Positions 4,704 through 33,664 of a stretch of 43,833 nt of DNA are shown piece after piece (within the stretch, counting starts at the first letter, position 1; every line of letters starts with the position of its first letter). Under the pieces are notes generated by a model. That model worked only from the letters and a program-made list of their open reading frames with translations. It searched no databases and had not been told where the DNA came from. Origin of the DNA: Candidatus Omnitrophota bacterium (lineage in GTDB: Bacteria > Omnitrophota > Omnitrophia > Omnitrophales > Aquincolibacteriaceae). Both the position numbers and the translations under genes were made by a program. The DNA lies in NCBI GenBank assembly GCA_016930235.1, contig JAFGHI010000030.1:1-43833 (forward strand), read 5' to 3'.

Positions 4704-4837
4704 CCGCTCGCCCCGTAGAACGGGGCTCGCCCACCGCGGCGGTGTCCTTTTCCTCATGAGAAAAAAGGACACCGCCGCGGTGGGCGAAGCCTCGCCGGAG
4801 TCCGCAGGACGGAGGCGGGCGAAGCGGTCAAAGGAGT
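4704..4837. repeat. Compound palindromic element between leuC and leuD
   Basis: Perfect 24-bp arms 4728-4751 / 4763-4786 (cgcccaccgcggcggtgtcctttt / aaaaggacaccgccgcggtgggcg). Flanked by ccccgtagaacgggg and gcctcgccggagtccgcaggacggaggc hairpins. Outer arms are accgctcgcc and ggcgggcgaagcggt. Confidence 0.85.
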
Positions 4838-5847: not shown

Positions 5848-5955
5848 ATGCAAAAAGGCTTTAAAAAAGCGAAAGGCATATTTTCGTCGGTTACATGTCT
5901 ACTTTTTTTAATTACGAATCTATGCAACCCTTTACCCCCGAAGACAGCCTACGCT
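5848..5955 (+). other. Predicted N-terminal signal peptide of the giant ORF
   Basis: Basic start (KKAKG), hydrophobic core (SVTCLLFLITNLC), then AYA|ND as a plausible signal-peptidase site. Confidence 0.7.
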
Positions 5956-8900
5956 AACGACCAAGAAGCCTCATTCCTCACAGAACAACATCTGGGCGGT
6001 TTTGAGATACCGGCAGAGTGGGGCCGCGTGACAGAAATCATGAAGTCCGCCGAGACGGACTCTCTTATCCTTCATATCCAAACCTCTCACCGCCATTATG
6101 AAGCCCAAAAAAATATCCAGGCCATCCTTAAATATCTTTCTGAAAGATATGGGGTCCATCAACTCTTTTTGGAAGGAGGCTGGGACAAACTCGAGCCCGA
6201 GCTTCTGAGATTGACTCCTGAAGACGAAGAAACAAATCTCCGCATTACCGATGCCCTTTTGAAGGCGGGCGAAATTACCGGGGCCGAGGCCTTCCTGATC
6301 GATAACGAATCACCCGCTGATGGCTGGGGCATCGAAGATTATGAAGCCTATGCTGCCAATGGCGCTGTCTTTAAGGAAATCATACGGCAAGAACCGTTGA
6401 TTGAAAAAGGTCTCACGCAGGTTAAAGCGGCTTGGGAAAAAGAGGCCGCAAAATATTTTTCTAAACAGCTCCGGGATTTTATCCGCAGGGAAGAAGCCTT
6501 CCTGGCCAACCAAATCTCCATGAGTGATTGGTTGGATCACTTAACGCAGGAAGCCAGAACCTGTCTCCACCTGGATTTGGAAAATGTCTGGCATCAAGCA
6601 ACGTGGCCGATACTCGTACGTTACGCAAGACTTAAGAAAGTCGGAGAGTTATTCAACGAAGAAAAGATCCGGGAAGAATCGGAAGATTTTATTATAGCAT
6701 TACGGCGTCTTCAGATATCCGAGGAGATTGTCAAATCCATTCAAGAGACCTTAGGATCGGAACTGAATCAAGGAAATAGAGCTCAAGCCCGCGGAATCTT
6801 GAGATCCCGAACCCAAGACGGGGAAGAGATACCCGCTTCAGCGACACGTTTCCTCTTTGAACGGTTGTTTGATGTCCTGCCCGAAGACTTCTCAATGGAA
6901 TTATTCCCCAATCTCAAACTTTTCATTCAGCAGCTTGTCCTCATAAGCGAGCTTGAAGGCGAAAAACTGGAAGAGGAAACGCTGCGGCTCACATCCTGGA
7001 TCACCGAAGCGCTGGCTGACGGGGAAAGGGACAAGGAGCTCGTCCGGATGCTCGAGGCCATCAGGCATTTTGAGAAACTCTTTTCGCTTGAACTCACCCG
7101 CAAGGAATATCTCAACGCTTTTACGAGCCGCGGAGAGGATCCATTCAATCGTTTGTGGGAAGAAATTTTCAGCGGTCAGAAATTGAAGGCGAAAGACAAA
7201 GCATTGAAGGAAGGACTTCAAGCGCTTTACGCCAAGGCCGTCCAGTTTTATGAAGGGGCCGTCCGCCGCGAAAAATGGATGGCCGAAAATACGCTCTCTC
7301 ATCTCCGGCAGCTGGAGAATCGAAAAGCGGTTCTCATTACCGGCGGTTTTCACGCGGAGGGCCTTAAAGATGCGATCCTGAATCAAGGGGTTTCCTACGT
7401 CCAGATCACACCGCGCGTGACCGACATTCCCCAAAACACGCGGGAACTTTACCTTCAAATGGTTTTGGGCGAGTACCTGCCTTCTAATTCCAAATACGAG
7501 GCTGCCTTGAGATTACAAATGCAGGATTGGCCTGGGATGGAAAGCGATAGCTGGCCGGGCCCTTCTCAACAGAATGTCGCCCGGCATATGCTGGATATTG
7601 CAGGCCTTCAATTGAATGGCGATGCAGAGCTTGACCGGCAGTTAAAGACATCGCGTCTCGCTCAGCTGGCCGGATTACGCTCTGAACGGCGAACCGTTCG
7701 GTCTGAAGATTTGAATCCCCCGAATCGCTGGCAGGGTCATCGGTGGGATGATTGGGATGCAGATCACCTTGTCCAAACGGTCCAATCGGACACCGCCGGG
7801 AATTATGAAATTACGATTGATGAAGCCGAAGAAATTTTGCGACTTGTCCGGCAAATTCAAGGTCCTGAGCAGCCAAATCCACGCCTTGTAGTTGAAGCCT
7901 GGAAAAGCGGGCATGCCCTTACGATCGAAGAGGCAGTCGAGATGAGTCATTTCTCCAATCGGATGAATGGTACGGGTACCGTTGATTTGGATAAATGGCG
8001 GGATCAGATTGTCCAAAGAAGTAAAGACAAGAAGGGTAAAGTTAAACCGCTCAGCAGGGAAGAAGCTTTCCAAATCTTGAAGCAGATCGCGGAAATTCGT
8101 CTGATGAATGCCGATACGCGGCTTCTACCGATGCCGCTTCTGATCGATGCCTTTTTTGCTTTCGGTTCAGTGAAAAAGTTGAGGGAGATGCTCTTTGACG
8201 TGGCCTTTGACTACGTTCCGGAACCAACAGGGAAAACAGCTTCGCGCCGGGGCAGCAACCAAAAAGCTGCCGTGCAAATGAATTTGAGTGGTCTTATAGA
8301 AGCGGCCAAAGGGGAGAATCCGAAGGTGATAGATTGGGATTGGGGTTTTAAGGCCCTTGATCGGTATTATGAGCAGCATCGAATTCATGTGAGCGCGGCA
8401 AGACAGCGGAAAACAAAGTCTGAGCTGCGCTTGTCTCCAACCGAGACAAGCACTGCTCGGGACTCGATGCAACCGCCGAGTGGAACATCAAGTTCCACCG
8501 GCGTAGTACCTGCACACGAAGTACAGGTGGGGCCATCTCGCTCCGAGCCGCACCAATTTCCGACCGAAATTGGTACTGCTCAGTCCTTTGGGCCGACCGC
8601 CCAAAGGGCCGAGCTGCGGGAAGTAAGTTCCGCTTGGCTCCTGGCTGCCGCCTCGGTTTTCGTCATTGGTTTGGATATCTCCTGGCGGATACAGTTAAGG
8701 CGGAGGGTGACTCAAATTTGGGAAGGGCATGTTAAGCGGGAGCTTTCCGATCCGGATTATTTTAAAGGGCCGGGAGCCAATGAGATGTTTTTTGTCAACG
8801 AATCGCGTAAGTGGACGCGTAGACTCGTAAAGGCCATTTATTCCACGACACATGATTGGAAAGCATCTCTCGTTTCATTGGATGAATTGTTGTCGAGAAT

Positions 8901-11900
8901 CCCGCAGGTTTCGGTTTCGCTTATCCGCCGCAATCGCCGGAGCGGAAAGAATGAACATTGGTATATTACCGTTCCCGATTCGGTTGAGTTAAAGCGGTTA
9001 GCCGAAGATTCTTCAAGATTACGGTCAATCATCATTTCTCATTCCGAATTAAGGACGGAGGATGAATATTTTCGTCAATTGGTGGATGAACATCTCGAGG
9101 GGATCAGGGGTGTTTACGAGAAATTCGAAGAACGTCTTGATTCGATTGCCGGGCAACATGGCATTGACAAACTCGGATTGCGCTATGCGGTCTTGTTGGA
9201 TGTGATGAGATATAACACCCTTTTTTACGGGGATATTCTGGAAGGCCCGGGTTATTCCGGACTTTCCAGAGACGACCGTGCATTTCTTTTTGGGATCATT
9301 TTGACTATTTGGCAGATGGTTTATGATGAAATCCGGCAGTTATGGACGGAATTAAGCCGGGAATCGAATCCTTTTGAAAGATTGGCTCAGGTCCTTGACG
9401 AGACGGGGGAATTCCGCGCTGCGCTTCGGGTGAATCATCAAGAGGCGCTTAATTTAGTTATTCATGCGTTGGAAAATTCGGGTTTCGTTACCGGATCGGG
9501 AAAACAAACTGCCTCGGATTGGGTGGATTATATTATCGCCAGCGCCGCGAGATTTGAGGAAGGCCGCGTTGGGGATATGAATCAAACCCGGGAAAACATT
9601 CTTCTTCTTAAGGCCTTATTTGATGCCAAATTTCATTATTATCACCAGTTAAACAGGTATCGGGATAAAAGCATATCGAGGACAGGGGGCCGGGTTTCGA
9701 TAAGTGCGTTTGTGGAAGCGCTTCTGCGGCATGACGGGGAATTTCTGCGTGCAATAGATCGGGACGATCAGCCGCCCCGCTCCGAGCTGCGTACCTTAGG
9801 CTGGGAATGGGGATTGGCATTGGGTGCGGTTGTTTTGGGGGGTGTGTTTTATGCTTTGAATGTTTATTTGAAACGCGCTGAGTTTTTTGAACGAGTTGAA
9901 CAGATCTGGGTGGAATCCATCCGGGGAGTTTTGAAAGAATCTCATCATCCGGTCGAGCCGGGGCATGAGGATCAAATTCAGGATGATTCATGGGTCGACC
10001 GGCACGAATCCCGAAGGTTGTTGATGGAGCTTGCCGGGGTTTTAAGGAAGAAATTCCGCAATGATCCGAAGGCCATCGAAATCTTAAACAGGATTGCGCG
10101 GCAGATTTCAGATTACACAGAACCCATTGTGATGCGGGAAGGTGACAGGACGCCTCTTTACCATTTTAATCTTCCCGATCCCCGTCAACTGAAAATCATG
10201 CTCGAACAGCCGGCCAGACTCAATGAATGGATCCTGAACGCGAAAAGTAATTTTGCGCCCGACGAAATCGAGGCAACCCGATTCCAAAGGTCTGAGTTGC
10301 GCACAGGCGACATCGTTTTCCACGCTGAACCAAGTCCCTTATTGCCCGCTATCGAAAAATTTTATGGACAATTTCAGCAGACCATCGGGTGGATGCTCGA
10401 AGGACAGCTTTCGGGTGTTAAGGAACACCGGCTTGTTCGGGACATGTTAACCGACATGGCGCAATTTCATCAGAGCGAACGCAAGTGGCTTCGAGGCGGA
10501 GATTTCAAAAAACTCACATCCGAAGAAGAGGCCTTTCTCTTTTTCTCTTACCTGCTCCCTCTTTGGCGGATAATCCATCAAGAGTTGGAGCAAGTTTTCC
10601 TGGAATATGAGAAGGGTAAGCAGCCTGTCAGCGGGTTTTATGCGTATTTGACCCAAACACCGCGGGAGATCAGCGGGCGCATTTGGCAGCGGCATCGGGA
10701 ACCGTTTGGGAGGGCGGTGCAGTTAATCGGACAACATGCCGCAATCCGGTGGGCGGATGATCGGCGCCTCGGGGCTGATTTTATTGACCGTGTGATTGAC
10801 CGGCTCGTTCAATCTACGGCCGGGGTAGTTCAAAGTTTGGAACAAGAAAACAACCGATACGCCGCTATGGCGATTTTGAACTATCTTTTTAGGAGCAGGC
10901 AATTATTTTACAAGGAGTTTTCCGATTATGTCGCCGATTATGCGAAAAAGAACCTTCGGTCCCTTAGGCCCCGGCATGTAAATGAAAATCGTAATTTATT
11001 TTATCAAGCGCTCGAACAATACGAAGATACGCTCCTGCGATCAGAATTGCGGAAAGGCGTGCGCTCCAAGACGACGGTTCAAGGGGAACTGCGCGAGGTT
11101 GAAACGGCAATCAACGGAATTTCCCGCGCCTTGAGTGATCCGGAAGATGGACTTGATGAGGAAATTGCAAATCGGACTTTGACAGAACTCAACACACAAA
11201 AGGATCGTTTACTTGAAGAATTGCGGGATTTGGAATCCCGTTCCGAGCTCCGTCACGATCCGGTTTTGGAATGGCCGATGACCGATCCTAATCGAGATTT
11301 TAATCAAATGCTTACGGATTTTACTTTTTACGCTGCCAGGCAATATCACGATGGAAGCGCAAGATTAATGACGAGTCCTTCGATGATGGGTATCCAATAC
11401 AAGCGCGAGCAATCCTACGACAGCGTTTTAATTCGGCATAATCCGCAGGAGAATGAACTCGTTGTTGTCGGCAAAACGAGTCGCATTGATGAGCCCGATG
11501 CGGTTTTGAAATATGTACAAATCGTTTTTTCTGATGAGGATCTTCGTGTTTATCAGGGCCAGGCGGGTGAAGAGCATGGGGAAGTTGCTTCGGGTTCTTC
11601 AGAAGAGACCAGGATCATTGCGGAGCCTTTAAATGGTATTCGCTATCAAAGCGGTCGATTTGAACTGGTCGTAAGTCCACAGGCTTTTAGCTTCCTTAAA
11701 GCTCAAGAAGTGATGATAACCGGATTGACTTATGTGGAAAAGACGTCCGAAACGGAAATTCGCCCGCGCTCGGAACTTCATGAATCCATCTCGCCGGTAT
11801 TGGGATGGGGCGGAACCGTAAGTATCCTTTTAGGCGCCGGATTGTTTCTCGTGACGCTGGGAGGTTTGGCGGCAGTCTTCTTATTCCGGCGATGGAAGGC

Positions 11901-14900
11901 CAACGGACGGTATGACAATTATCCGGGTGTCAAATCCCATGTGCTGGCAGCCGTGAAAGCGGATCTTCGGGTTGATTTTTCTTCAGGGAAAAGGGAGATG
12001 ACCGAAGAGAAAATGGGCGGAGACGTTATTGACATTGATTATGATGACGAATTTTCAATCGACTGGGCCGCGTTACCGACGCCTCTTCTTCAAGATCTAT
12101 ATCGGCAGCTTGCTGAACAAAGGCGCCCTAAGATTGAGTTTGTATCGGGCGGGCCGCACGTGATTGTCAACCATGTTGAGCATCGCTTCTCGATGAATCG
12201 TGGCAAGAGGCTGCCGTCCCGCGTGATAGCGAAAAAGACTTTCGAGATCCGTTCTCCCCGTTCCGAGCTAAGGGCGGGATCTGTTTCACCCCGCGACTTT
12301 TTCGGTGAGGCGTTCGGTGATTGGGATAATCTTGTGCAAAGGATTCAAAGAAGTGAAATCACGTATGCTGCGATTAAACCCCTCGGACACTTCCCCGAAG
12401 AGGTGCAACTTGCGATCCGTTATCAAATTATCAGGACTTTTGTCCAGGCAGGATTTCTTGTCCATATTGGGAGACCGATTCGATTGACTCGCGAAGAAGC
12501 GGAAAAATTTTATACGGTTCATCAAGGAAAGCCTTTTTTTGATGCATTGGTTGATTATGTCTCAAGCGATGTCTATGTCCCGCTTCTTTTGGAGAAAAAG
12601 GATGGTCCTGAAATTATTGATCATGCCCGCGAAACGATTGTCGAAATCCGAAGAAAGGCACAGGCCTCTGAGTTAGTTCGAGGTGCTGAACTTATTCCAC
12701 AAGGTGTCGAGACGAGGGTTTACACGCAAAATCTTATTCACGGCAGCGATTCACCTGAGAATGCGATTTATGAGGTGGGTGTGATTTTGTCCACAGAAGG
12801 TGCGCGTTCGGAAATGCGGGGAATGACGGACCACGTGCAACGGACCACGGACCGTGAAAATTTACTCCTCACCCCAACCCTCTCCCCAGCGGGGAGAAGG
12901 CAGGGTGAGGGGGCGATCCACCTGGGTCATGGGTCTTGGGACCTGGGTCTTGAACGATCTGAGTCAAGAACGCCTTCCAGTGCACATTGGAGCTTGGCGG
13001 ATCCAGAATTTCCCCGTGGTGGTGTCATCCTGACCGATAACTATATCCGCTCCGATATGAAAACCTATTCCTTGCCGCATCACAGGAAGATTGCGGTTCT
13101 GGAAAGACAGGAAGGAGATCATCTGCCTTATGCAGGAAAATTTGTGACGGCGATCCAGCAAGCCGAGTTGGTAAACGAAGTTAATATCATCAGCCTTCAG
13201 ACATCCGGGAGTGTGCGGCAGACACTCGAAAACCTGCTGAGCGGATTCGAGCCTGATCTCGTTCTGGTACCGGTCTCCTCCGGCTGGCCGGAAAATGAAG
13301 TCGCTTCCTGGATTCATGATTATGTCCAGGTGCGCGGGAGCCCGCTTGAGGTGCTTCTTTATCCTGTTCCTCTTGAAAAGAATGATCAGTTTTTTTATAC
13401 GCCCATTTTAGAATATGACTTCGAAAAGATTATCCTGCCCGCAGTCAAAGTCCATCATACACAAAATCGAAGAACTCAATATGTGCCGGCCGTACGGCAT
13501 CTCCTGCGATTTTTGGCGGCCCGCGCCAATGCGGAACGCCGAGATGGGCCGTTGAGTACTCCCGTTGCCAATGCCTTTGCGGTGGAACTTATCCGTAAAG
13601 GGGAGGTCCAACGTGTCTTGTCTAATCGTAACCAAATGGCAGAACTGGACAAACTTGTTCCGCTTATTGTGATTTCGCCTCATCCGGATGATGATGTGAT
13701 CGCGGCCGGGGGATTGATCCGCAATATTTTAGCGACGACCGGCGTTGAGAACTGGGTTTTAGGAAGAGGGTATACCGGGGTAACGGGCGTCGGGGATTTG
13801 ACACCCGAAGAAATAGCCTGGGGGATGAGAGAACTGCAACAGATTTTCAAACCCGGCGGTGATTTCTACGACAAAACCGGTTTCGTTCCGGATCTTTACG
13901 GGCGAGTCTTAAAAGAAACGCCTGAGAGTCCAAGTCAGGAAGTGCGGTCGATTGTCGAGTACCAAGTGGATCTCCTGGGCCATTTGCCTGCTGTCCAGGT
14001 AAAAATTAACCAATGGGAACTAGGGGACAACGTCCAACCTGTTTTTGGGGAATTGGTTAAGCGGATTATTCGAAGGAAAGAGGTTGAAGAGGCTTCGCGG
14101 ATTTTATCGCGGGATTTGGAACGCCATGTATCGGTGAGATGGTTTGATCTTCATTCAGTGGCTTTTCCGCATGGTCTGGCTCCCCGGGTGCCCGATTGGA
14201 TGGTTCAGCAGGATGAAGTTGTTATTCTCGAAGAGTTCCAGCATTTTTTCAACGAACATCGTCAGCAAATTATGGCGTCCCAGACCCACGGGGTTCCCTG
14301 GAGTATTGTCGTTCCCCATCCCGAAGACCAGCATCCCCATCACAAGACGACGTCTCAAATCGTGATGACGGTGTTACAGGATTTATCCAGGCGCGAGGGG
14401 ATTGAGATTCAATTGATTGAATACCAGTCGCCCTGGGCCGGCGGGTTTGACACCTATTTTGTGACAGATACCGAGATCCCATCCGAAGCTGTTTCTCCTG
14501 ATTCCGGATTAGATCGTTCCGAAGAACTGTCGGCGATGGAGCAGTATCAACGGGCCTTAACCTTTCTTGTCGGAGAATTGGCGGGTCGGTCTTTTGGTTT
14601 GAGTTCACCGACGCCCGAACAATTAGGCGGCCGTTTTACGGAGAGTTTTAAACGACTGGTTTTTGAGCCGGTCCGCTCGGAGCTTCGTAATGATTTTCAA
14701 AAAAGAGCGGGTGATCTCCTTAACGCTTTGGAAGGATTTGACACAGCGGTTCAAACGGCTTTTAAGGCTGTCGCTAAAGATGTGCAGAAAATTGATGAAG
14801 AAGGTAGTCGCTTTCAAGTGACGCTGGGCGGTTTTCTTGGGTCTCTTGAGCGCGTCAAAGATTTGCTGCGGGCCGAAGATCTAGACCGGAAGGTGTTCCT

Positions 14901-17900
14901 AGATGCTCACGCGGCTTTGGAAAAAATTCAATCCGGGATGAAAGAGTTAATCGGAGGTTACAATCCCAAGAGGGCATCGCTCGGCGAAGTCCGGACTGCC
15001 GGCAATCAACTTGACGGAATTATTAAAGAACTTGCGGCATTTCTGGGGGTAACAAAGAAACCTGCTGCCAAAACCGTTCAACCGAAAACCGAACCGCCCA
15101 CTGAAAAAGTTGAAGGCACCGTGACGCCCCGTGAAAGTCATCGGCCGTCGATCGAGGTTAAAAAACATCAGGGGGTTGACGGTTTTGGTGCCGTATCAGC
15201 GCCGCCGGCTGAGTTTTTCGAACTTGCCAGCGGGCTCAAGCAAAGCGTTTTATCCGAGATGCTTTTGGATCCTGAGATCAATGCTATCGGGAAGGTAAAG
15301 GGCCCGGCTGCGGAGCTTGAAAAAGTAAAGGGCAGTATTATTTGGGTCGAATTGGGTTCCGAACCGGAGACGGTGGCCAAGCTTGTCATCAACGGTTTAA
15401 GGTCCGGTAAAGAAGATAAGTTACCGGTCAAGTATGGCTTTTTAATCGTTTCCTATCGCGCCGCTCCCGGATCGCCCGAAGCCAAGATGATCGTCCTTGT
15501 GCCTGAGACCGTTCCGGCAGAGAGCCCGCGGTCCGAACGGCGTGTGAAGGTTGAGGAATTGAATCGTCATTTGCGGGAACATAAAGCTCTCGACGGTATT
15601 GTTGTAGCATTACATCATTCCTATCGTGTTCGAGCGAAATGGGTTAACGCCCCGGCCGGCTCCAATGTCAAAGGTTACTATGTTTTTCTCTCACAACCTG
15701 CGGATTGGGATGAAGGCCTTGAAGAAAGGTCCGCACCGGTTCAAATGTATCTGGCCACAGAAGGAGAAATGCAGCAATATGAGTGGGAGATCCAACATCT
15801 TATGGACGAATCTTGGACGGCTCAGGAACGGAAAGGGGTTTATCTGCCGTCTGATTATTTTCTGTCCAGGAAGAAGAAAAAGAAAGTGGATCTAGCCTTA
15901 AAAAGCGAAGACGTTTTCAAGAAGGCGGCCAAAGCCATGGCGTTATTCACCAGCCACCACCAGATCGTGATGGATATCCGTGCCGCGGTTTTCTCTGAAC
16001 TCGGGGACTTCCAGTATGGTGCTGAAATTAAACCGTCTCAACAAAGCGATTTTGGTCCGCCCGCAAGTCAGGCACCTCAAAATATGATAAAGCTCCTTCA
16101 ATATGTGAAGGATCATCAATATGAAATTCTCGTTGGAGTGCAGGATATTGATCGATCAATGGGGCGGATACGATTGGTTCTAGGTGGTTCGGATGAAAAA
16201 ATCGGCAGTGTTGAAGAAGATGTAAAGACCGATTTGCCTGGATTGTCATTCCAAAAAGCAAAGGTGATTAAAGAATATCCTTCCGGGGGCAGACAGGTTC
16301 AACTTGGAAGAAAGGTGGTTATTCTTCGTGATTTTCATCAATTGAATGCGCTTTATCAAATTCTCGTCAAGCGTTTCCGTCCTGAATGGTGGAAGGGGGA
16401 TTATCTCGTGAGTGTGGCTGAAATCGAACGCGCCCTGGATCAGATGCAAGGGGCAAGGGGCAAGGGGCAAGGACGCTCCGAGCTTCGCGATGATAACCAA
16501 TATGTCGCCCGGGGAAACGGAACGATTCGTCTGGTACCGAGCGAGGGGAACAAAGCCGAGATTCATATCGTCCAGAATGATGTCAGGCAATTTACCTTTG
16601 AAATGATGTCCGGATCGGCGCAAACCGTGGTCGATAGCATTTTGTCCGGCATAGGATCTCAAGCGATTGAGGCCGTCTGGATTGGCAGTAGCGGCCACCT
16701 TATGGTTAGTGTCGGGGATTTTAACCGTTTTGTGGTTGATCCGGTTTTGGGGACGGTCGAGTTCAAACGGAACTATGTCTCAGCAGCTAGCGGTGTAATC
16801 GATCTCAAGGTGGAGCGGCGACATCTTGATCATCTAGCGGTTACCGTCAATGGGGGGCAATTTTTTACGCATACGGTTAAGAGCGCAGTAATCACTCTTA
16901 CGGCGATTGAATCCGTCAAAGGCGAAAGCGGTTATGACGCGGTCTGGCAGGATGCGAACGGTAATCTTATCATTCTATTAACGAATGGTTATCGGGTGCG
17001 GGTGGACGCAACAACCGACGAAGTTTCTGCTATGCCAGCAACAGGCTTGGACGAACTCCAGCCTTTAAAGGAAATGGGCCCTTCGCAAACAGGGACATCC
17101 GAATGGGAAGGCGAAGGAGAACAATTTCTGGTTACCTCCCGTCAGGGTGAGATTACCATTGAGACGACGGATTCGATTTTTACCGTTGCAGTTAATTTAA
17201 ACGGGAAATCAGAATTTGGCTGGGCGTTCGCGAAACCGGCTGCTCAGGTTGTGGATGAAATTAATGATGTCCGAGCTCAGTTTGGAAGTCCTATCGGATA
17301 TAAGGCTGTCTGGGGGGATAAGAGAAATCGTGATCTTGTCATTGAGCTCGATGACGGCCGGATGATCCGGGTGAAAGATCAATCGGGTGAGATATGGGTT
17401 CGCCGCGCAGATGCCGGCGAAGGGACCATTGTACTCGAGTCGACTGGAAATTACGGGGTAACTGTTCTTTTGGACGGTAACTATCGTGCTGAACTTGAAT
17501 ATCAACATGGTGCCAGAAGGTCTGCGGAAAGCCTTCGGGAACATCAGGGTACATCTCGGATTGCTTCTGTTTGGTCAAATCTGGATACAGGTGTCCATAT
17601 TTTTTACCTCGATGATGGAAGAATGCTGACAGCTGACAACCAAACCAGTGAAGTTACGGTCACTGGTGTCAAAACCGCTGGTGAAGCCCGACCGGCGGAT
17701 TCTGTTTTGTCCAAACTTCCTCCCGGTGCCGAGAAAGTCGTTGATAACGAAAACGGTTTTATCGTTTTAGAAGTCAGTAGATACGGTAATATCCTTGTTT
17801 ATGCGGGTAATCGAGATCGTGCCTACGAAATCCCAACCGCTAAAGATACCGGTCATGCATATCGGGAAGTCCACCGGCTTCAAAGAGGGGCAGACATTTC

Positions 17901-20900
17901 TTCCATCTGGAAGAATCCAGAAACATGGGACCATTTTATTGTTTTAAGTGATGGCCGGGTGATCCAAATGAATTATGCTACTCATGAAGTGACTTTTATG
18001 AGTGCTGATACTGCCCCGGGAAATTTGCCGGGCGCGACAAAGATTGCCGACTCAAACGATGGTGAGATCATGCTTTCCGCAGCGAGTACGGCGCTTGGAT
18101 TGTTAGTTAATGACGCAGTAAAAGAAACCTTCTTTATTGTTAATCCTCTGATTGTGGCACAAACATTTAATAGTTTACGCAGAGGCAGTTCGATCAAATC
18201 CGTTTGGGGTACAAGCGAGGAGCTTTTCTTTAATTTAGATGATAAAAGGGTGATTGTTATTGTCAGAGAAAACGGCAATATTTATGTCGAAGGTGAAGAA
18301 CCTGTTTCAAGTTCATCGACGGCAGTTAAAGAACATCCCAATGCCGACAAAGTAGCAGATTGGGGAAATGGCGTGATTGCATTAAGAAGGAATATCCTCG
18401 ATGAAATCATGGTTTATGAAGGCGATCGAAGAGTCTCCATCGTTCATATCCCCAGCAGTTCATCGGAACAAGTATGGAATCAAATCCGAAGGCTCAGGGC
18501 ATCCACGGAAATCGTCGCGGTCTGGCGGGAACAGACTTCGCTCGATTGCCTAATTGACTTAAGTGACGGAAGGACGATACGCATCGAGGACGAGACCGGT
18601 CGTATCGGTGTGGAAGGCGGAGATGCCACAACGCCTGCGCCGGCAGCCCTGGTCCCGCCGGCTTCTTCTTTTATCCCTCAGGAGGCCGTCTTGGTCGTGG
18701 ATTCAACGGAGGGAGGTATAGCCTTAGAAGTTACTTTAGACGGGGATATTGATATTTACATCGGTGGTCAGGTGGATAGAGACAGAAGGATTGATAATAC
18801 GACTTTAAGCAAGGCTAAAGAAATTATCGAGAAGTTAGGTGATCATACAATCACTGCGATTTGGTTAAAGAAAAGCGAGTCAAATTATTATTTGGATAAG
18901 GCCTATTATTTCGTTTTAGATAACGGACAAACGGTTGTTTTTAACGGTCGAACGGGTGAGGTATCGATCGAAGGTGTCGGAGCCGCTCCGGCTGGAGCTG
19001 ACGTGACAGCCAAAGAACACCCTGGATCAAGCAGGGTAGCGGATCAAAAAAATGGCGAGATTACAATCCGGTGGGATACAGATGATCAACTGGAAGTATT
19101 GGAGGGGAGAAGTCTCGCTCATACCATCTTTTTACACGATTTCGTAGCGGATCGAGTTCTGTCACAGATCCAGGGATTACAGGGCTCAAGCCGTGTCGTT
19201 GCCGTTTGGGAAGAAATTTCCACGCTGGACACTCTTATCGATCTAAGTGACGGAAGGACCCTCCGAATCAATGAGATTAATAGCCGAGTCACGGTTGAAG
19301 GAGAGCCGGTTGTCGCTTCGGCTGCTAGGGCAGGCAGTAGTCAATTAGCCGCGGCCAGTGCGGATGAGATGCTGGAAATGGAACAGGAGGCGATTGATGC
19401 TAAATCCAAAGCTGAGCCGGTTGCTTTTCAGGTTACTGTGGACGAAATACGGGAACGAGGAGTGGATGTTGTTCTTAGAGGCGAAGACCGTTCCGAAGTC
19501 AAAGGTTTTATTTTCGCGGATCAGTTAGATCAAGATCTCTCACGTTATTGGTGGGGCAATACCATTTCTCCCGTTTATCTCGTCTCTTATAAATATAGAA
19601 AACCCGAGCACCAAAGAAAATCTGCTCTATTTACGATGCGGTACGACCGTGCCTTGCGTGAGCGGCAATCAGGGACCCGTCAGCGGATGACTCGTCCCGA
19701 AGCACTGGAATATGTTCAAGACGCCTTTCAAAATGGTACGACGGTTGAGGCTGTTGTTCTAGGGGCATCCAGCAAGGGGACCGGCATCAATTTTATGATC
19801 GGCGGTGTTTTGAGGGCGTTTATGCGCGACCGATACGCTCGACCAAGATCCGGCGAGGTGAAAGAACTTCATGTTGTGAAAGTTGATGTTCAAAGCGGGG
19901 ACGATGTCTATGTCGAATTAGGTGAGACGGATCATCAATTGAGAAGAGGCAGGTCTGATTACCGGCGCTATATGCCCGAAGTGGATCAAGAAACGGCCAT
20001 GTCGGAATTAGAAGATGCTTTGCAGCGGGGAACAACGGTTTCAATCAGGGCAGGCCGTCCCAATGAGCGTAGAACAGGACTTAATGGTACGTACAGGGGA
20101 GCGGTTCATGTTTTCTATAGGGATGCACAAGCGGCGGCTGAGTGGTCCCGACAAACACCTGAGCAGGATATCGATGGTCTTTATGTTGTCCAAAAAGTAG
20201 AGAAAGGGCCAGACTCCTTTTATATCTTGCAGCGCAATCGGCCATCAGCTTCGGGTCCAAGATCTCAGCGCAGTATGGGAAGGTCAGGCAGCGGCGGGTT
20301 GTTCACTAGCAGTGGCCCGGCCGGCCTCTCACCGTATCGTAGAAAGGGTGGGCGGACTCCCAAAAAAAGCAAACGGCCCGGCCGCGGCGGATTGGATGGC
20401 GGCCGGCGACGTTCGGAGCTTCGTATCTGGAAAAATGGGGCGCTTGGGGAGGATCAATTAGAGATTTATTCCACGCGTGCTCACTGGGAAGGCGCCGAGA
20501 AGATGGCGGTTCCCCGCGAAATAATCCTTCACTCAGGCCGGGGTGAATTTGTTTTGCTTAACTTGAAGGCAGCGGGGCGGGCGGAAGATCAGCCAAGCCA
20601 CAATGTTTTAACCTATTCCATGGTTGCTGCCAACAGCTTGCCTTCGTTATGGGAAGAAGGTCTCCAAGTTGGCAATTTCAAGGTTGAAATTGATCAGGAA
20701 GGCCGTCCTGTCAGTCAGGGCATTCGGATTGAGATTTTTAGTGATGTCCAAGATCAATACGCGTACTTGGGAGAGTCTCTATCGCAATGGATCAATGCTG
20801 CAACGAATGGCGGCGAATTTCCTTTTACGCTTCAAAATTCCAGATTTGTCACGTTCTTGACCACCAACGTGCTGCCGACCATTAATCCTCTTGAGCAGCC

Positions 20901-23900
20901 AGATCAGGGGAATGATCTTGTAGTTGATCATGTCTCGTTAGTCAACTATGCCGATGATTTGGTTCGTAAACAAGCGGAAGCGGTTTTGGTCCACAGTGCG
21001 ACCGGCGGGTTTGGTGCTCGGGGAATGACACCTGCCTTGGCTCAATCGATTATCGAAAGCGAAACCCGGGCCATGAAGGAAGTTGGATTAACCGTTTATG
21101 CCAATGTTACACCCACGCGTTCTCGAGGGTACGAAGAAGATTATGAGAAAAATAAAGGTGAAGCCATTCAGGAAATGCTGCAGAATGCCGGGATTGCTGA
21201 AAATGCAGGCGCTGATGCGCTTGTTTTGGCGCCTCTTACCTTCTTAAGGTCCAGCGAAGAGATCACGGAAGTTGTCAATCTTTTGGTTGAAGCCACAGAT
21301 CTTCCTGTTGTTTTCTACGATAATCCGGGTCTTCACTTGATCCCGGGTCGGGATATCGACGCAGCTGTTGTCGAAAGTTTGTGGCGGTCCGGTCAAATCG
21401 CGGCGATTAAGGTTAGTACAGACCAATTTGAGATTGTGGAGGGGTATCTCCGGACAGGCATTCGTGTTTATATCGGGAATGAAGGTCTGATTGCCCGTGC
21501 CATGGAAAAGGGCGCCATTGGTTCTGTGGGTTCGACTGGAAATATTCTTTCCCTTCTGCAGGATTTACCCGTCACGAGAAATCTCGATAATCTTCAGTAT
21601 TTGCAACGTATCGTGGATGACCTTCGGGGACCGTTGACGGTGGATCAAACAAAGATTACGGCAGCTATCCTTTATGTTTTAGCGAAAGAAGGAATTGTTC
21701 AGAATGTCCTTCTTCCGGGCGTCCCAACGCTTGAAGATACGGAAAAACAAGCTATTGACGAAGCCCTTGTCAAAGTCAATCGATTGGAGGCTGGAAAGAA
21801 CGCAGGTATTGCTCAAGCGGCGCTTGAAAAAAAGGTTGTCGACCGTTTCATAGAAGATCCATTAGGTTATGTGAAATGGTTAAGAGATGAGGCTGATGAT
21901 GCGACTTTGACTCTTGCGATCAATCACATTGAAGGGGTGCTGACAGTTGAAGGGAATCGCAGGATTTTGGAAAAGCGGGGTGTTTTAGAGGAGATCGAAA
22001 CGGTCCTCGATGAAATTTTTGCCGCCCATGAATGGCCGGAGGAGGCTTTTCAAGTCGGGGAAGGGGTTGTAGACGCTGCTCAAGCGGATTTGCAAAGAGC
22101 CCGGCAGATATTGGTCGAACAAGTTGTTCGAAAGTTGTCTGACGACCGCCATGCCGAAATGCTGAACCGGTTTTATGAGGAAGGTGTTTGGAGGTCTCTT
22201 TTGGCAAATGTCGCTGAAGCGATGGCGGCGGTTCCCCGTCATCTGTATGCCTCTCGCTTTAACGGAGCTAATGCGTACGAAAATGACATCGTCTATATCG
22301 GACGCAGACAGACGATTTCCCAGCCGTCGTTAATAGCGATGATCCTTTTGTTCCTTCATTTGAAGGGTGATGAAAAGGTTCTAGAGGTCGGCGGCGGATC
22401 GGGATGGCTGGCATCTCTTTTGGGGCAGTTGACGGAAGAGGTTTATTCGACGGAAATTATTGAGCTGCTTCGCAAGCGCGCCGAGCGGACGGTTCAAAAA
22501 ATGGGAATTCAAAATGTCCATATACTTCAAGCCCGGCCGGACGTGCTCGGTTATCCGGATGCAGGACCTTATGATGTGATTGTCGTTTCAGCGGGGAGTT
22601 CTCGCGCGACGGTCCCTGACGAGCTTGCCAATCAGCTCGCTGAGGGCGGGAAATTGCTGATTCCGTTATTGGATGAAGATGCACAGGCCTTGAGGGAACG
22701 CGAGAATGCAAAAAGACTTTATTCGCTTAAAGTTTTTGTCAAAAGAAATGGTGTGTTGGTGGATATTTTTGATATGAAAGCAATGGGGTATCCTGTTTCC
22801 TTTGTGCCGCTTATCTTGCCCGAGCGCGCAGAGTTACGCGCGATCAACATCAAGTCAGAGACTTCGAAATCTGCCAATCAGTTAGTGATTGAAGTTGGTG
22901 GCAAGAAAAAAAGTGGGCGTCATATGAGAACAGTTCCTCGCTCATTTACTTTCCCGGTTTGGAGGGATGCCGCTCAACTTGTGAATGAAATTGAGGCGAT
23001 TGCTGCCACGGGAAACCGGCATTATACGGGCGTTATTATTAATTCCGAGCGTGGGCATCTTGTAACGCAATTATCGGAAGAGGCAACAACCCTTGGTACT
23101 AAAGGCTGGCATAAGGACGGCATTTTTAGTGATCTTGAGAGCGGAGATCTTGTGATTCAGTTATCCGATGGGGCATCGATCCTTGTTTCGGGTATGGATA
23201 ACTATGCTATGGAGATTCCACCCGCCGGTATGACGCGGGAAATAAAAATGAGACGAAGGGTCAAGTTGAATGGATTGGTCCCCAGCATTCTGTCGGTCAG
23301 TGCCGAGGGTGTGGTTCAAGGGAACCTGCTTGTTGAGCGCTCTTCGTCCGAAATCATTCGTGAAATCGAAGGCCTGATAGGCGAGCAGTTTTGGACGGGT
23401 GAGCGGTTTTTTGTATCGGCGGAGGTTTCGCCTCAAGAAGATGTTTTAGAATTGGTTTTGAATGACGGCCAGAAGGTGGTGGTAACGGAAGATGGTAAGC
23501 GTGTCACGATCGAAGAAGGCGGGCGTATTGCCGACCCGTTTTTGCTTCGGTCCGTCGTCCGGCTTGTCGAAGAGTGGGAAGATTACGGACAGGTTCAGAT
23601 CAATGCCAGTGTCTTGGCGGCGGAGATGGGGATCAGTTCGGATCTTACGGTGACGGACCGGGATGTTGTTCGTGCGATTCATCTTTATAATCAAAGTGGT
23701 TCCGAATACGTTTTGGTTGATTTACCCACCGAAATAGGAAGTACCTTCCAAATCTTACCGCGTTCGGAATATGAAAAGGTGGTTCCTCCCGAAGACCGCT
23801 CAGAACTGCGGTCAGTAACGGACCACGCAGAACGAACCATGGACCACGGGAATTTATCCCTCACCCCGACCCTCTCCCCGGCGGGGAGAGCCCGCCTGCC

Positions 23901-26900
23901 AGCAGTCGGGCAGGGTGAGGGGGCGAGTGACGTGGTTCGTGGTCCTTGGTCCGTGGTCCAAGCTCGCTCCGAGCTTCGCAGGAGTGGGCATCACTATGAG
24001 ACTATTCAAGGCAATATCTGGGTGAATCGGGAAATGAGTGAATTTCCGGATAAGCCCGAATTGAGTGAATTTGTGATTAGTAACGGACCTGAAATTAACT
24101 ATGCCAATGTTGACGCAAATTTCCGCGTTCGTGTTCTATATTGGGATTATCAACGCGCAATTGTTCAAGTGAAAGTCCCGGGAGGCGAGTGGTCCGAGGA
24201 GATCCAATTGTATATGCAGACGGGCCGGCATGCGATTTCAGGGACAATTCTCATGGAACTTCGCGGCTTCGGGAAATTCGAGAGGCCCGAATTCGGCTTT
24301 TATGTGCCCGGGGAGTCAAGGGTTTTGAGGCGGAGAGAATTTGACCGCGGAGTTCAGCGGCGCTCTGAGCTGCGTGATGATTTTGTGCCGTATGTAAATG
24401 AGGGACAATATACGCCTAACCTTAAAGGGTGGTTAAAATTAGGGGTGGATGGAAAAGAGGGTGGACTTTACGAATTTAGCGAGTTCGTCATATCGGTGGA
24501 GGGTGAGCTCGCTGATTTCGATGATCTTGACCGGAATATCCGGATCCAAGTAACTGATTTTTCAAAGGCGGAAAAATGGGTGGAGTTCCTATGGAAATAT
24601 CCGGGCCGGGGTTGGTCGCAGCCCGTAAAAATACGGATGGAATCGGATGAATTTCATATCACGCGGAATGCGATCATAAGATTTAGCAGTTTTGATCGGG
24701 AAGGTTTTCCGGGTTTTGCTTTTCGTGATATCAAGCGAAAACATGAAATCTTAAGGCGCCGGGCCTATGAGGAGATTAAAACAGGATTAGTTGTCAGCTA
24801 TCCCGGCGAAGAGATTGATCTCAAACATCCGGAAAATAATTTGCATTTAGAGATTGCGGATGCAGATGCAGACCAAGGAAGAGCTATGATCAAGTACCAC
24901 TCCCGAGGAGCGAACAGATGGACACGACCCCGAGATCTCAAGACAGATGCGATTATCAAAATCGACGGTTTGATTTCTGTGACCTATCGCGGTTTGGATA
25001 AAGAGGGAAAACCCCAATTTGAGTTTGAGCCCGACAATGTCAAAGTGATGCCCGGTCTGGAATACCGCCAGATCAGACAATCCGCCTACCGGCGCTCGCC
25101 ATCAAAAAGTGAGCTACGGATCGAGATCCCTGAAATCGTGGAAGTCATCAAAGACCTAATTAAAGAAACAGATGGAGAAAGGCAGATTCGTATTACGAAT
25201 GGGATTGTGGCGAACAGGCTTAATATCTCAGAGTCGGCGGTTACCACTTTGATGTTAGAAAAGGCCATCGGGCAATTCAATGAGTCAGATGGCACGCATT
25301 TTCTGGAGCCGATTCGCACGGAGATTGGGCATACGTATCTCGTCGAAACCCGTTCTGAATTGCGGGGCGAGTGGTTTAATTTGTCCGTTGATCTTCGAAA
25401 TGGCCGGGCTCTTGAAAATTATAGTGAATTGGTCATTTCCACAACAGGGAGAGTTGATGTGACGGATGTCGATCGGAATATCCGCGTTGAGGTGGTTGAA
25501 AGCGATTGGCAGCGGGAATGGGTGACCATTCGCGTCAAATTACCGGGCGGTGAATGGTCTGAAGCGATTACTTTATTTCGAGGCGATACTTATCCGTTAA
25601 CGAAGAGTGTGGATATTCAGCTTTTTACCTTTAACGGAAGTCGCGAACCTCGCCTGGGAGTTACGAGATTACCTCATGTTGGAGTCCTTCGCCGGCGGCT
25701 TTTTAACCGTGATCATAGAAGATGGCTTGAGCAGCAACCGGCGGTAAGAATAAGAGCCGAATTGCGCTTGTCTCCAACCGAGACAAACACTGCTCGGGCC
25801 TCGGCGCAATCGCCGGGTGGAACATCAAGTTCCACCGGCGTAGTACCTGCACACGAAGTGCAGGTAACGATGCCTCGCTCCGAGCTGCGGAGCAGAAACT
25901 GGGTTAATCTTCCCCTTGATGTTGAAAAAGGAAACCCCGAAATGGGCGAATTTGTGCTGAGTATGCCGGTGCTGGATATGCCCGGCAGCACGATGGATTA
26001 TTCCCGCGTTGACAATAATATTAGGTTACAGATCACGGCCTTTTCGATGAAAGGAGCCTGGATTGAATTCAGGTATAAACTGCCCGGGCGTCATGCAAAA
26101 TGGTCAAAGAACTATCGATTGCAGATGGGAGATGGACTTTATCCGATCACCGAAAGTGTTGAGTTTGAGTTGGGCTCGTTTACGGAGGAGGGTATCCCGG
26201 TCATTGGTTTTTTTGCTCCTCGCAGCGTTCGAATTTTCACAAGGCAAAATTATGACACATCCAATCGGCAGAAAACCGTCTGGTTTACTTTACGGGCGGA
26301 TACATGGGCCGGTAATCTTACGGAGGATCTAAGCGGATTTGTCATCAATAAAGAAGGAGAGGTTGACCAAACCGATATCAATAATAATGTCCGGGTCCAG
26401 GTCATTGACAAGGATGTTAAAAAGCAAACGGTCACGATTACGGTTGCTTATCCGGGAGAACAGAAAATCCGGACGGTTTTGCTTCGAAGGCACGAAGAAT
26501 ATCCGGTTTTCCTAAACTTTTCTATCCGGTTCCATTACTTTGACGATGACGGCACGCCTTATTTCGATTTTACTAAAGACACGGGTTATAAAGTTCTTCG
26601 CAGAAGCGTTTATGGAAGGGGTCCTGTTGTGCAGCATTCTGAATTGCGGGAAAAACGTGTCGCACTTCAGGGGGCACAGGGAATGCCTGAATTAGTCGAA
26701 TCATTTTTGCCGGAAGATGCGCAGAATGCGGTGTATGGTTACCGTGAAATTGGACGGGTAGGGGAGACAGGTATTTTTGCCTTTGCTGTCAAGGTGATGG
26801 ATGGCATCCTGCCTTTATCGTTACACGGGCTGGCGGCTGCCGGTCCGTTCTTTACAGAACTTCTAAGTTTGAATGGGTTGGCCATGGCGGCTCCGGGCCA

Positions 26901-27399: not shown

Positions 27400-27430
27400 C
27401 CGCTTCGCACACCGCGTAGGTGGCCTTTTC
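27399..27430 (+). repeat. Truncated (left arm only) palindromic element
   Basis: accgcttcgcacaccgcgtaggtggccttttc matches the 32-bp left arm with one mismatch. Loop-like cctaacattggatg follows, but there is no right arm. Confidence 0.8.
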
Positions 27431-27659
27431 AGATATTCCTAACATTGGATGCGGGCCCCTTTTCTATGTCTTCTTGAGGACCGTTCGGACCACAAAGGAT
27501 AAAGGCCGGTTGAGGGTGCTATAGACTTCAGTCATCAGGTTCTTTTTTTCCTTCAACCTTCGATACTTGGCCTTCCAACCGTTTTTGGGTTTATAGTCTG
27601 TTGTCTTCAGTCCTTAGTCTCCTTATCGCTTATTGCTTAACATGTTATAATGCATTTCT

Positions 27660-28460
27660 ATGTATCGACTTCTGGTTGTTGGAGATAGCTATGAAGCCCA
27701 CACGATTACCCGTTATTTCCGGTCGAAGAATCAGCGTGTATTTTGTTTGATCGGACATTCTGAGGCGGCTGATTCAATTCGGGGTATAGGGGCCGAACCC
27801 ATCTTTGCGGATCTTCCGTCCGGGGAATTATCGCAACCATTGCCGGCTGTTCAGTTTGTAATTTTTGTTCAGCCGAATCAGGGGGAGAAGGATCCGTACT
27901 TAAAGGGGGTTTCGAATTTTTTGGGACGTCTCAAACGGAATCCGGCACCGACCTTTCTTCTCTGTGTGACGGGATTGGAGATCTGGGGCCGGGGGATCGG
28001 TGATTGGGTGGATGAATCGACGATTCCACAACCGGATACGCCATGGGGGGAGGCACTTTTAAAAGCTGAAAGACGGATTCTTTTATCAGGATATGCTGCC
28101 GGTATCTTAAGGATTGGCAAGGTTTATGGGAATCATGATTCATTTGTGAAAGCAGCAGGCGATTTTGAGAAGATAGATCAATACTTGAGTTTTCTCCATG
28201 AGGATGATTTAATGGGAGTAATGCCTCGGGTCTTAAAGAAGATTAAGGCCGGGGGAGTCCTCATCGCCTCGGAAGATGAACCGCTTTTAGAATCTGAAGT
28301 TAATCGTTATTTGAATGGAAATTTTGGACAGCCGGTTAAAAAACCGGTCGGGTTCGAGACGGGAATCCGGGGGGTTCGATTACGTAATACCGCGCTCAAA
28401 AACCTCGGTTACCGCTTCGCCCACCGCGTAGGTGGCCTTTTCGCACAAAACGAACGTTAG
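27660..28460 (+). CDS. NAD(P)-dependent epimerase/dehydratase-like (extended SDR) protein
   Basis: 266 aa: 'MYRLLVVGDSYEAHTITRYFRSKNQRVFCLIGH' Rossmann-like start, 'TFLLCVTGLEIWG', 'GILRIGKVYGNHD'. Confidence 0.65.
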   Translation: MYRLLVVGDSYEAHTITRYFRSKNQRVFCLIGHSEAADSIRGIGAEPIFADLPSGELSQPLPAVQFVIFVQPNQGEKDPYLKGVSNFLGRLKRNPAPTFLLCVTGLEIWGRGIGDWVDESTIPQPDTPWGEALLKAERRILLSGYAAGILRIGKVYGNHDSFVKAAGDFEKIDQYLSFLHEDDLMGVMPRVLKKIKAGGVLIASEDEPLLESEVNRYLNGNFGQPVKKPVGFETGIRGVRLRNTALKNLGYRFAHRVGGLFAQNER

Positions 28461-28501
28461 GAATGATGGAAAAGGCCACCTACGCGGTGGGCGCTAGCGG
28501 T
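28411..28501. repeat. Long palindromic element overlapping the 3' end of the epimerase-like gene
   Basis: Left arm 28411-28442 accgcttcgcccaccgcgtaggtggccttttc; right arm 28469-28493 gaaaaggccacctacgcggtgggcg. Confidence 0.92.
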
Positions 28502-28529
28502 GGTTGTGTAAGCGAGCGAAGGAGACAGG

Positions 28530-33487: not shown

Positions 33488-33577
33488 ACCGCTTCGCCCA
33501 CCGCGTAGGTGGCCTTTTCGTACAAACCTAACGTTAGGAATGATTGAAAAGGCCACCTACGCGGTGGGCGAAGCGGT
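33488..33577. repeat. Long palindromic element, best-preserved copy
   Basis: Perfect 32-bp arms 33488-33519 / 33546-33577. The loop contains the palindrome cctaacgttagg. Confidence 0.95.
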
Positions 33578-33664
33578 TGCGATGGGTGTGGCGGTCACTT
33601 ATAATGAACCTGCTCACCTCGATGGTGATCTCTTCGAATATTTCTAGCCGTAGCGACTTACCGG

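Follow-up and report, generated by a model that had tools for sequence, protein, structure and literature searches.

A lineage-variable peptide motif at the module borders of giant open reading frames in Candidatus Omnitrophota: candidate cellular polyproteins

The stretch of DNA analysed here, called the window below, corresponds to bases 1 to 43,833 of contig C50 (126,764 bases) in a 2.31-Mb, 63-contig genome whose named relatives are metagenome-assembled genomes (MAGs) of Candidatus Omnitrophota. It contains a giant open reading frame (ORF), predicted to encode a secreted protein, in which a five-residue peptide, R-[S/A]-E-x-R, recurs at the borders between modules (Table 1). Giant ORFs with RSELR, about 2,500 to 12,255 amino acids (aa) long, are found on many contigs among the matches listed, and the intact giants that were sampled share a common architecture: a signal peptide, a domain with a predicted TIKI/EreA/ChaN fold, a variable series of enzyme, membrane and repeat modules, and a tail that ends in Ala. 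All six intact giant N-termini that were aligned carry the signal peptide followed by the domain of about 500 aa. In what follows, G000 is the window's own genome and the other G numbers are further genomes, while L numbers denote loci and C numbers contigs.

Table 1. Positions of the giant ORF, its domains, border motifs and spacer repeats in the window
Feature	Positions	Strand	Basis
Giant secreted ORF, 7,183 aa, with all motifs in question	5848..27399	+	ORF list, translation
Sec-type signal peptide region (MQKGFKKAKGIFSSVTCLLFLITNLCNPLPPKTAYA)	5848..5955	+	inspection; same layout in other aligned intact giant N-termini
N-terminal domain, predicted TIKI/EreA/ChaN-type fold; conserved H81, E109, H502; first acid replaced by T79	5956..7512	+	alignment, AlphaFold2 (AF2) model
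RSERR with 6-bp hairpin, then RSED	7678..7692	+	motif scan, folding
KSELR	8416..8430	+	motif scan
Spacer repeat copy 1, hairpin-forming (z -3.8)	8426..8551	+	self-comparison, folding
RSEPH	8539..8553	+	motif scan
RAELR, hydrophobic helix directly after	8605..8619	+	motif scan
RSELR, hydrophobic helix directly after	9778..9792	+	motif scan
RSELR	10288..10302	+	motif scan
RSELR	11038..11052	+	motif scan
RSELR	11239..11253	+	motif scan
RSELH, then hydrophobic helix	11767..11781	+	motif scan
RSELR, start of nucleoside diphosphate kinase (NDK) module	12259..12273	+	motif scan
NDK domain, active-site His retained (NLIHGSDS)	12361..12792	+	Pfam match; sole NDK found in G000
RSEMR, NDK module end	12805..12819	+	motif scan
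Spacer with dispersed palindromic repeat (LTPTLSPAGRRQGEG), also intergenic in G000	12820..12954	+	repeat search
RSESR, PIG-L module start	12955..12969	+	motif scan
PIG-L deacetylase region, HPDDD at aa 2612 to Pfam match end	13681..14373	+	Pfam match
RSELR, PIG-L module end	14674..14688	+	motif scan
RSERR	15529..15543	+	motif scan
RSELR beside GCAAGGG x3.9 run	16474..16488	+	motif scan
RSELR	20410..20424	+	motif scan
Dihydrodipicolinate synthase-like domain	21163..21708	+	Pfam match
Protein-L-isoaspartate methyltransferase (PCMT) domain	22150..22704	+	only strong PCMT match in G000
RAELR	22825..22839	+	motif scan
RSELR	23797..23811	+	motif scan
Spacer with palindromic repeat family of 12820..12954	23812..23964	+	repeat search
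RSELR	23965..23979	+	motif scan
RSELR	24361..24375	+	motif scan
KSELR	25105..25119	+	motif scan
RSELR	25351..25365	+	motif scan
RAELR	25753..25767	+	motif scan
Spacer repeat copy 2	25763..25888	+	self-comparison
RSELR	25876..25890	+	motif scan
HSELR, last border motif	26635..26649	+	motif scan
C-terminal region common to orthologous giants, last residues ...TTSA	26650..27396	+	sequence comparison

The border motif in protein and DNA

The sequence RSELR occurs 13 times in the window's giant, where 0.024 occurrences are expected, and 99 times (0.21 expected) in a giant sample of G000 made up of 15 giant ORFs or fragments with a total of 66,067 aa. Variants are also frequent in this sample, namely RAELR (23), RSEQR (16), RSELH (13) and KSELR (9), and the general pattern R[SA]ExR is present 166 times against 4.5 expected, with 4 to 8 matches for permuted-pattern controls. 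A search of the whole genome with the RSELR pattern gave 156 matches, compared to 13 for the reversed pattern. A chance origin of the motif was excluded by the composition-based expectation together with the shuffled controls. The nine motifs named in a preliminary description of this DNA (at 7678, 8416, 8539, 12805, 12955, 23797, 23965, 25753 and 25876) do lie in frame, and the hairpin reported at 7678, gaacgg-cgaa-ccgttc, is present with a z of -2.6.

The 166 R[SA]ExR sites are encoded by 134 distinct 15-mers; all six Leu codons are in use at residue 4, and the codons of residues 4 and 5 are near background. The giants contain the DNA pattern CGYTCNGAR 138 times in the coding frame versus 3 to 13 times in any one of the five others, and its density in the non-giant DNA of G000 is about 1 per 10 kb. 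A search for DNA windows differing from the commonest 15-mer, CGCTCCGAGCTGCGG, at no more than 3 positions gave 87 in frame 0, of which 85 encode the motif, and 0 in each of frames 1 and 2. Conservation of the DNA irrespective of frame and strand, as in a DNA repeat or mobile element, was thus not seen for the motif, and the lock to the coding frame rules out a pure DNA repeat as its nature. Maintenance of a hairpin within the motif by compensation was also considered and rejected, with no covariation between the third bases of the R1 and E codons. These sequence patterns indicate that R-[S/A]-E-x-R is a peptide-level signal and not a DNA element. Codon choice at its first two residues is nevertheless skewed beyond codon use: in the G000 giants R1 is encoded by CGY in 85% of cases versus 35% in other RS dipeptides, and S by TCN in 99% versus 65%. 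Twelve other genomes, when pooled, give 77% versus 42% for CGY and 94% versus 59% for TCN, with R5 near background.

The motif was found as R[SA]ExR in the giants of twelve genomes of the order, and an unbiased gapped-pattern search ranked R.E.R, RSE or SE.R first or close to first for the giants from 12 to 13 of the order's genomes; the same search returned none of the three in the giants of G044, G080 and G007. The fourth residue varies by genome, being L in G000 and G020, T in G005, A in G001, V or M in G009, G032 and G046, A or V in G050 and G012, and T or M in G066. Genome and letter share 1.05 bits of mutual information (shuffled maximum 0.35), or 1.01 bits when G000 is left out (shuffled maximum 0.53). 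Homologous modules from different genera keep both end motifs and differ in the letter, as in RSELR...RSELR (G020) versus RSEAR...RSEAR (G050), and RSELR...RSELR (G000) versus RSEMR...RSEVR (G046). A DNA pattern that admits hydrophobic letters is enriched at least threefold over the reversed control in 25 of 27 genomes of the family and is also enriched in some genomes of three other families of the order, with none outside the order. A genome-wide choice of fourth letter, combined with a constraint that appears to act on the peptide, argues that some factor reads the peptide.

Modules, their exchange and the repeats between them

Pfam gave 33 domain matches across 11 giant ORFs, and none of the motifs falls inside any of them, where 16.6 would be expected and the minimum in 2,000 random draws was 5. 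As in a polyprotein, several complete proteins are found per ORF, the NDK and PIG-L modules are bounded by motifs in other genera too, and the common junction sequence is absent from within modules. The NDK module lies between RSELR and RSEMR in the window and is flanked by motif copies in G015 and G009 too; its active-site His is present in all four giant-borne copies that were read. In G000, NDK and the sole strong PCMT match are found only inside the giant and not as free genes; most relatives have no NDK, and 11 relatives have a strong PCMT as a free gene. For the PIG-L homologs, alignments cover query residues 229-808 (G009) and 243-804 (G050), and the motifs stand at 233 and 806. Further modules bracketed by the motif include alanine dehydrogenase, PTA, GNAT, acyltransferase, formyltransferase, CheR and response regulator modules. 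The 12,255-aa ORF on C7 (L035, L034) contains GH77, a debranching enzyme, a divergent phosphorylase, a starch-synthase domain and a PPDK domain, and would thus hold a glycogen pathway in one predicted-secreted chain; the main phosphorylase of G000 is a free gene outside this giant. A simple pattern search found no canonical GHSxG in the acyltransferase-like module of C33, so that not every module is clearly catalytic.

Hydrophobic helices, plus one lipobox-like segment, start immediately downstream of motifs, like the N-terminus of a free protein. The lipobox-like segment follows RSEIR at aa 2320 of C2 (L033) and consists of a basic stretch, a hydrophobic stretch and AFGAGC; it has the look of a lipoprotein gene incorporated into the chain along with its own signal.

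Comparisons between giants point to the motif as the boundary of exchange. When homology blocks shared by giants of different genomes were examined, 36 of 59 block ends were no more than 25 aa from a motif (mean of 8.7 and maximum of 17 in 1000 random draws), and a 1,312-column block common to G015 and G020 has a motif at both ends in both genomes. More direct are the orthologous giants at L146, L148 and L174, which have N- and C-terminal regions in common with the window's giant; L148 and L174 are 58-72% identical in aligned blocks, with one block at 36%. In L148, 1,073 aa lie between RSEVR (2426) and RSEIR (3504) that are absent from L174, where a single RSEMR (2977) joins the flanks, and L146 has three other, unrelated modules at this position. 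A module of about 625 aa follows the first motif in L146 and L174; L148 is without it and retains one motif. The preliminary description had viewed the borders as recombination sites and had proposed a comparison of orthologs, which bears out module gain and loss from motif to motif with one copy left. What it does not support is the motif as a DNA element, given the frame lock and codon diversity described above. Sequence comparison therefore supports the view that modules are exchanged as motif-to-motif units, with the caution that selection retaining only in-frame events with one motif would give the same picture among orthologs. A search for within-genus orthologs of the giant fragment of G072 gave no match in G022 or G054 and many internal copies in G072.

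The in-frame repeats in the window that had been noted earlier are real: 8426-8551 is 88% identical to 25763-25888, and 12805-12897 is 78% identical to 23797-23889. Of the 50 short DNA-repeat islands in the giant sample of G000, 44 are no more than 10 aa from a motif (mean of 9.1 and maximum of 20 in 1000 random draws), and 38 have a motif on each side at a distance of up to 60 aa (random mean of 6.3 and maximum of 15). The earlier claim that repeats enter only at module borders is thereby upheld as a tendency and is too strong in its "only", because 6 of the 50 islands are away from motifs. Similarly, repeats were said always to keep the frame, and they usually do; the exception is L065 10700-10840 (on contig C63), where a repeat shifts the frame from one flanking RSELR to the next and so divides the giant ORF in two, which is either a real break or an assembly error. 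Other spacers consist of tandem units of 20 to 22 residues that include the motif, and at the PIG-L border of G009 a repeat-free spacer of 12 aa separates two motifs, indicating that double motifs are independent of the repeat. The palindromic repeat in the spacers at 12805 and 23797 (R2 and R3) is also found in intergenic DNA, on both strands, in L060, L061, L043 and L045. The suggestion that repeats serve to spread modules has to be abandoned for this reason: their intergenic occurrence argues that module spreading is not their purpose.

Possible readers of the motif and competing explanations

The N-terminal domain has 1 to 58 matches per genome in the 22 genomes searched, with 20 in G000. 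Its AF2 model has a predicted local distance difference test score (pLDDT) of 88.8, and VIA-align comparisons gave Z-scores of 9.7 with EreC, 9.3 with ChaN, 8.8 with Bcr135 and 8.4 with RRSP; Foldseek alone found no significant match with the model. In a 41-sequence alignment the 2His/2Glu set is well conserved, the first acid being D or E in 37 of 41 sequences, with H45 in 40 of 40, E73 in 40 of 40 and H466 in 41 of 41. RRSP is an endopeptidase of the TIKI family that requires its 2His/2Glu residues (PMC6254334). A TIKI-type domain was also observed at the head of long ORFs in Auribacterota, Elusimicrobia, a Planctomycetales MAG and Candidatus Obscuribacterium (L169, L180, L185, L189, L206, L224 and others).

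It is probable, although not strongly so, that the giants are polyproteins, cut at R[SA]ExR into separate modules, with modules exchanged motif to motif and repeats residing in discarded spacers. The window's ORF would be one of about 20 secreted giants per genome, and the codon diversity and genus-wide change of letter suggest that a trans-acting factor with a genus-dependent preference at the fourth residue reads R-[S/A]-E-x-R. This factor would most likely be a protease that releases modules from the chain, which is the simplest reader because it explains the series of whole enzymes, the helices starting after motifs and the repeats between duplicated motifs. The cutter may be the N-terminal TIKI-type domain, a candidate because it is encoded within the chain, or equally well a separate protease. 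Repeats and duplicated linker units of 20-22 residues would gather between motif copies because the spacer is presumably unconstrained, and a double cut would discard it as a short peptide. The full scheme, in which the TIKI-type domain, or a distinct protease co-evolving with the sites, cuts some 20 secreted giants per genome at a common R-[S/A]-E-x-R code tuned to the genus, so that metabolic enzymes are released outside the cytoplasm while exchange and repeats are confined to the cut points, is plausible and is offered tentatively, at something short of probable.

Several points weigh against this scheme. Proteolytic cleavage at the motifs is a step that we infer, and a signal peptide ahead of cytosol-type enzymes is odd under any model. 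The fold Z-scores of the modelled N-terminal domain, at 8-10, are modest, and in the window's copy the residue beside the first catalytic His is Thr (aa 79, 6082-6084), a position occupied by Asp or Glu in most relatives. In G044, G080 and G007, giants that lack the motif have the TIKI-type domain at their head as well, which argues that the domain is not sufficient and may serve another role. Besides this domain no processing protease was identified, and a search of the 22 genomes for clostripain C11 found none. Finally, the CGY-TCN bias at residues 1-2 represents a DNA-level component beyond peptide selection, reflecting either the seeding of new sites by DNA copying or a second nucleic-acid constraint.

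The conservation at the peptide level and the genus-specific letter would suit any peptide-binding partner, and the motif could accordingly be a recognition peptide that is never cut, a linker for a chaperone, secretion ratchet or surface partner in giants that work intact as multi-enzyme chains or surface fibres. Other Omnitrophota giants are usually taken to be intact surface proteins (PMC10066038). We nonetheless consider this explanation unlikely, since the modules are whole and normally free enzymes (NDK, alanine dehydrogenase, PTA, PCMT and the glycogen enzymes), some modules have their own N-terminal membrane helix immediately after the motif, and a structural linker does not predict the clustering of repeats between duplicated motifs.

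The remaining explanations place the cause in the DNA. The preliminary description implied that the motif is primarily a recombination site, 15 bp long and driven by an enzyme or by homology, with the peptide as a by-product. Gain and loss from motif to motif with one copy left, block ends at motifs, the excess of the CGY-TCN bias over codon use, and the presence of a motif at the edge of some repeats all fit such a site, and the bias leaves room for some DNA-level copying at the motif. As the primary cause it is improbable, because third positions are degenerate, a single frame and strand are used, the DNA pattern is rare outside giants (1 per 10 kb), and the fourth amino acid shifts by genus while its codons remain mixed. 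The repeats themselves, palindromic and dispersed both within giants and between genes, might be the agents, as mobile palindromes that insert in frame and carry the motif along, as in Rickettsia. This last explanation is very improbable indeed: most motifs have no adjacent repeat (191 motifs versus 50 short repeat islands) rather than occurring solely with one, as a Rickettsial-type palindromic element would have it, the double motif at the G009 PIG-L border has no repeat, and the intergenic matches to R2 and R3 align on the palindrome and not on the motif.

Among the closest parallels to the giants are two known systems. MARTX toxins are likewise secreted giants with swappable middle modules, including an RRSP module with the TIKI fold that in the giants here would be N-terminal, and their internal proteolytic release resembles the cleavage proposed here. 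MARTX autoprocessing depends on a dedicated cysteine protease domain. Neither the MARTX cysteine protease family nor its glycine-rich arm families were among Pfam matches at E <= 0.01 or 0.001 in the subset of giants scanned. The MARTX toxins differ further in having pore-forming repeat arms and in lacking a lineage-wide five-residue border motif across some 20 giants, and the recognised modules of the giants here are, unlike theirs, mostly metabolic enzymes. Viral polyproteins, for example those of the Potyviridae, encode many proteins in one ORF, with a short junction recognition sequence that varies between lineages, and the giants resemble them in both respects. The giants differ in being cellular, in numbering about 20 per genome, in having a signal peptide, and in gaining and losing modules between species, and their cleavage is proposed from sequence.

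Velamenicoccus and other Omnitrophota, of the same phylum, have giant secreted ORFs with few recognised domains (PMC10066038); the text searched there describes no internal border motif and has 0 occurrences of RSELR, which was likewise absent from the relevant literature searched. The N-terminal domain has a predicted likeness to the TIKI/TraB/EreA/ChaN superfamily in fold and in its 2His/2Glu residues, and differs in its large helical insertions and in heading giant chains. Rickettsial palindromic elements and other small in-frame repeats are, like the repeats here, palindromic and read in frame inside coding sequence; the repeats here are mostly confined to spacers between peptide motifs, and the motif is independent of them. 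A survey of huge proteins notes that some could be cleaved, the difficulty being that the proteases and motifs are unknown (PMC11573180). A shared border peptide with a genus letter, in 12 sampled genomes of a single order, makes the question of intact versus cut giants directly testable. If they are cut, they would constitute a cellular polyprotein system at a scale otherwise known from viruses, and the motif provides a rule for dividing otherwise unannotatable giants into modules.

Giant tails and the intergenic palindrome

The C-terminal residue is Ala in 12 of 12 closed G000 giants compared with 7 of 104 control ORFs, and the penultimate residue is usually S, A or M. Endings observed in closed giants include TTSA, ATSA, AISA and FWSA (L038, L040, L043, L046, L034 and others). 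The Ala-ended tail is a possible C-terminal sorting or processing tail. The predicted model of the giants' C-terminal domain has a pLDDT of 51, which is too poor for a structure search.

A palindromic intergenic repeat of about 86 nucleotides (CGCCCACCGCGTAGGTGGCCTTTTC...) is present in the window at 1-86, 4727-4790, 27399-27446, 28418-28503 and 33495-33580, and the copy at 27399-27446 directly follows the stop codon of the giant gene.

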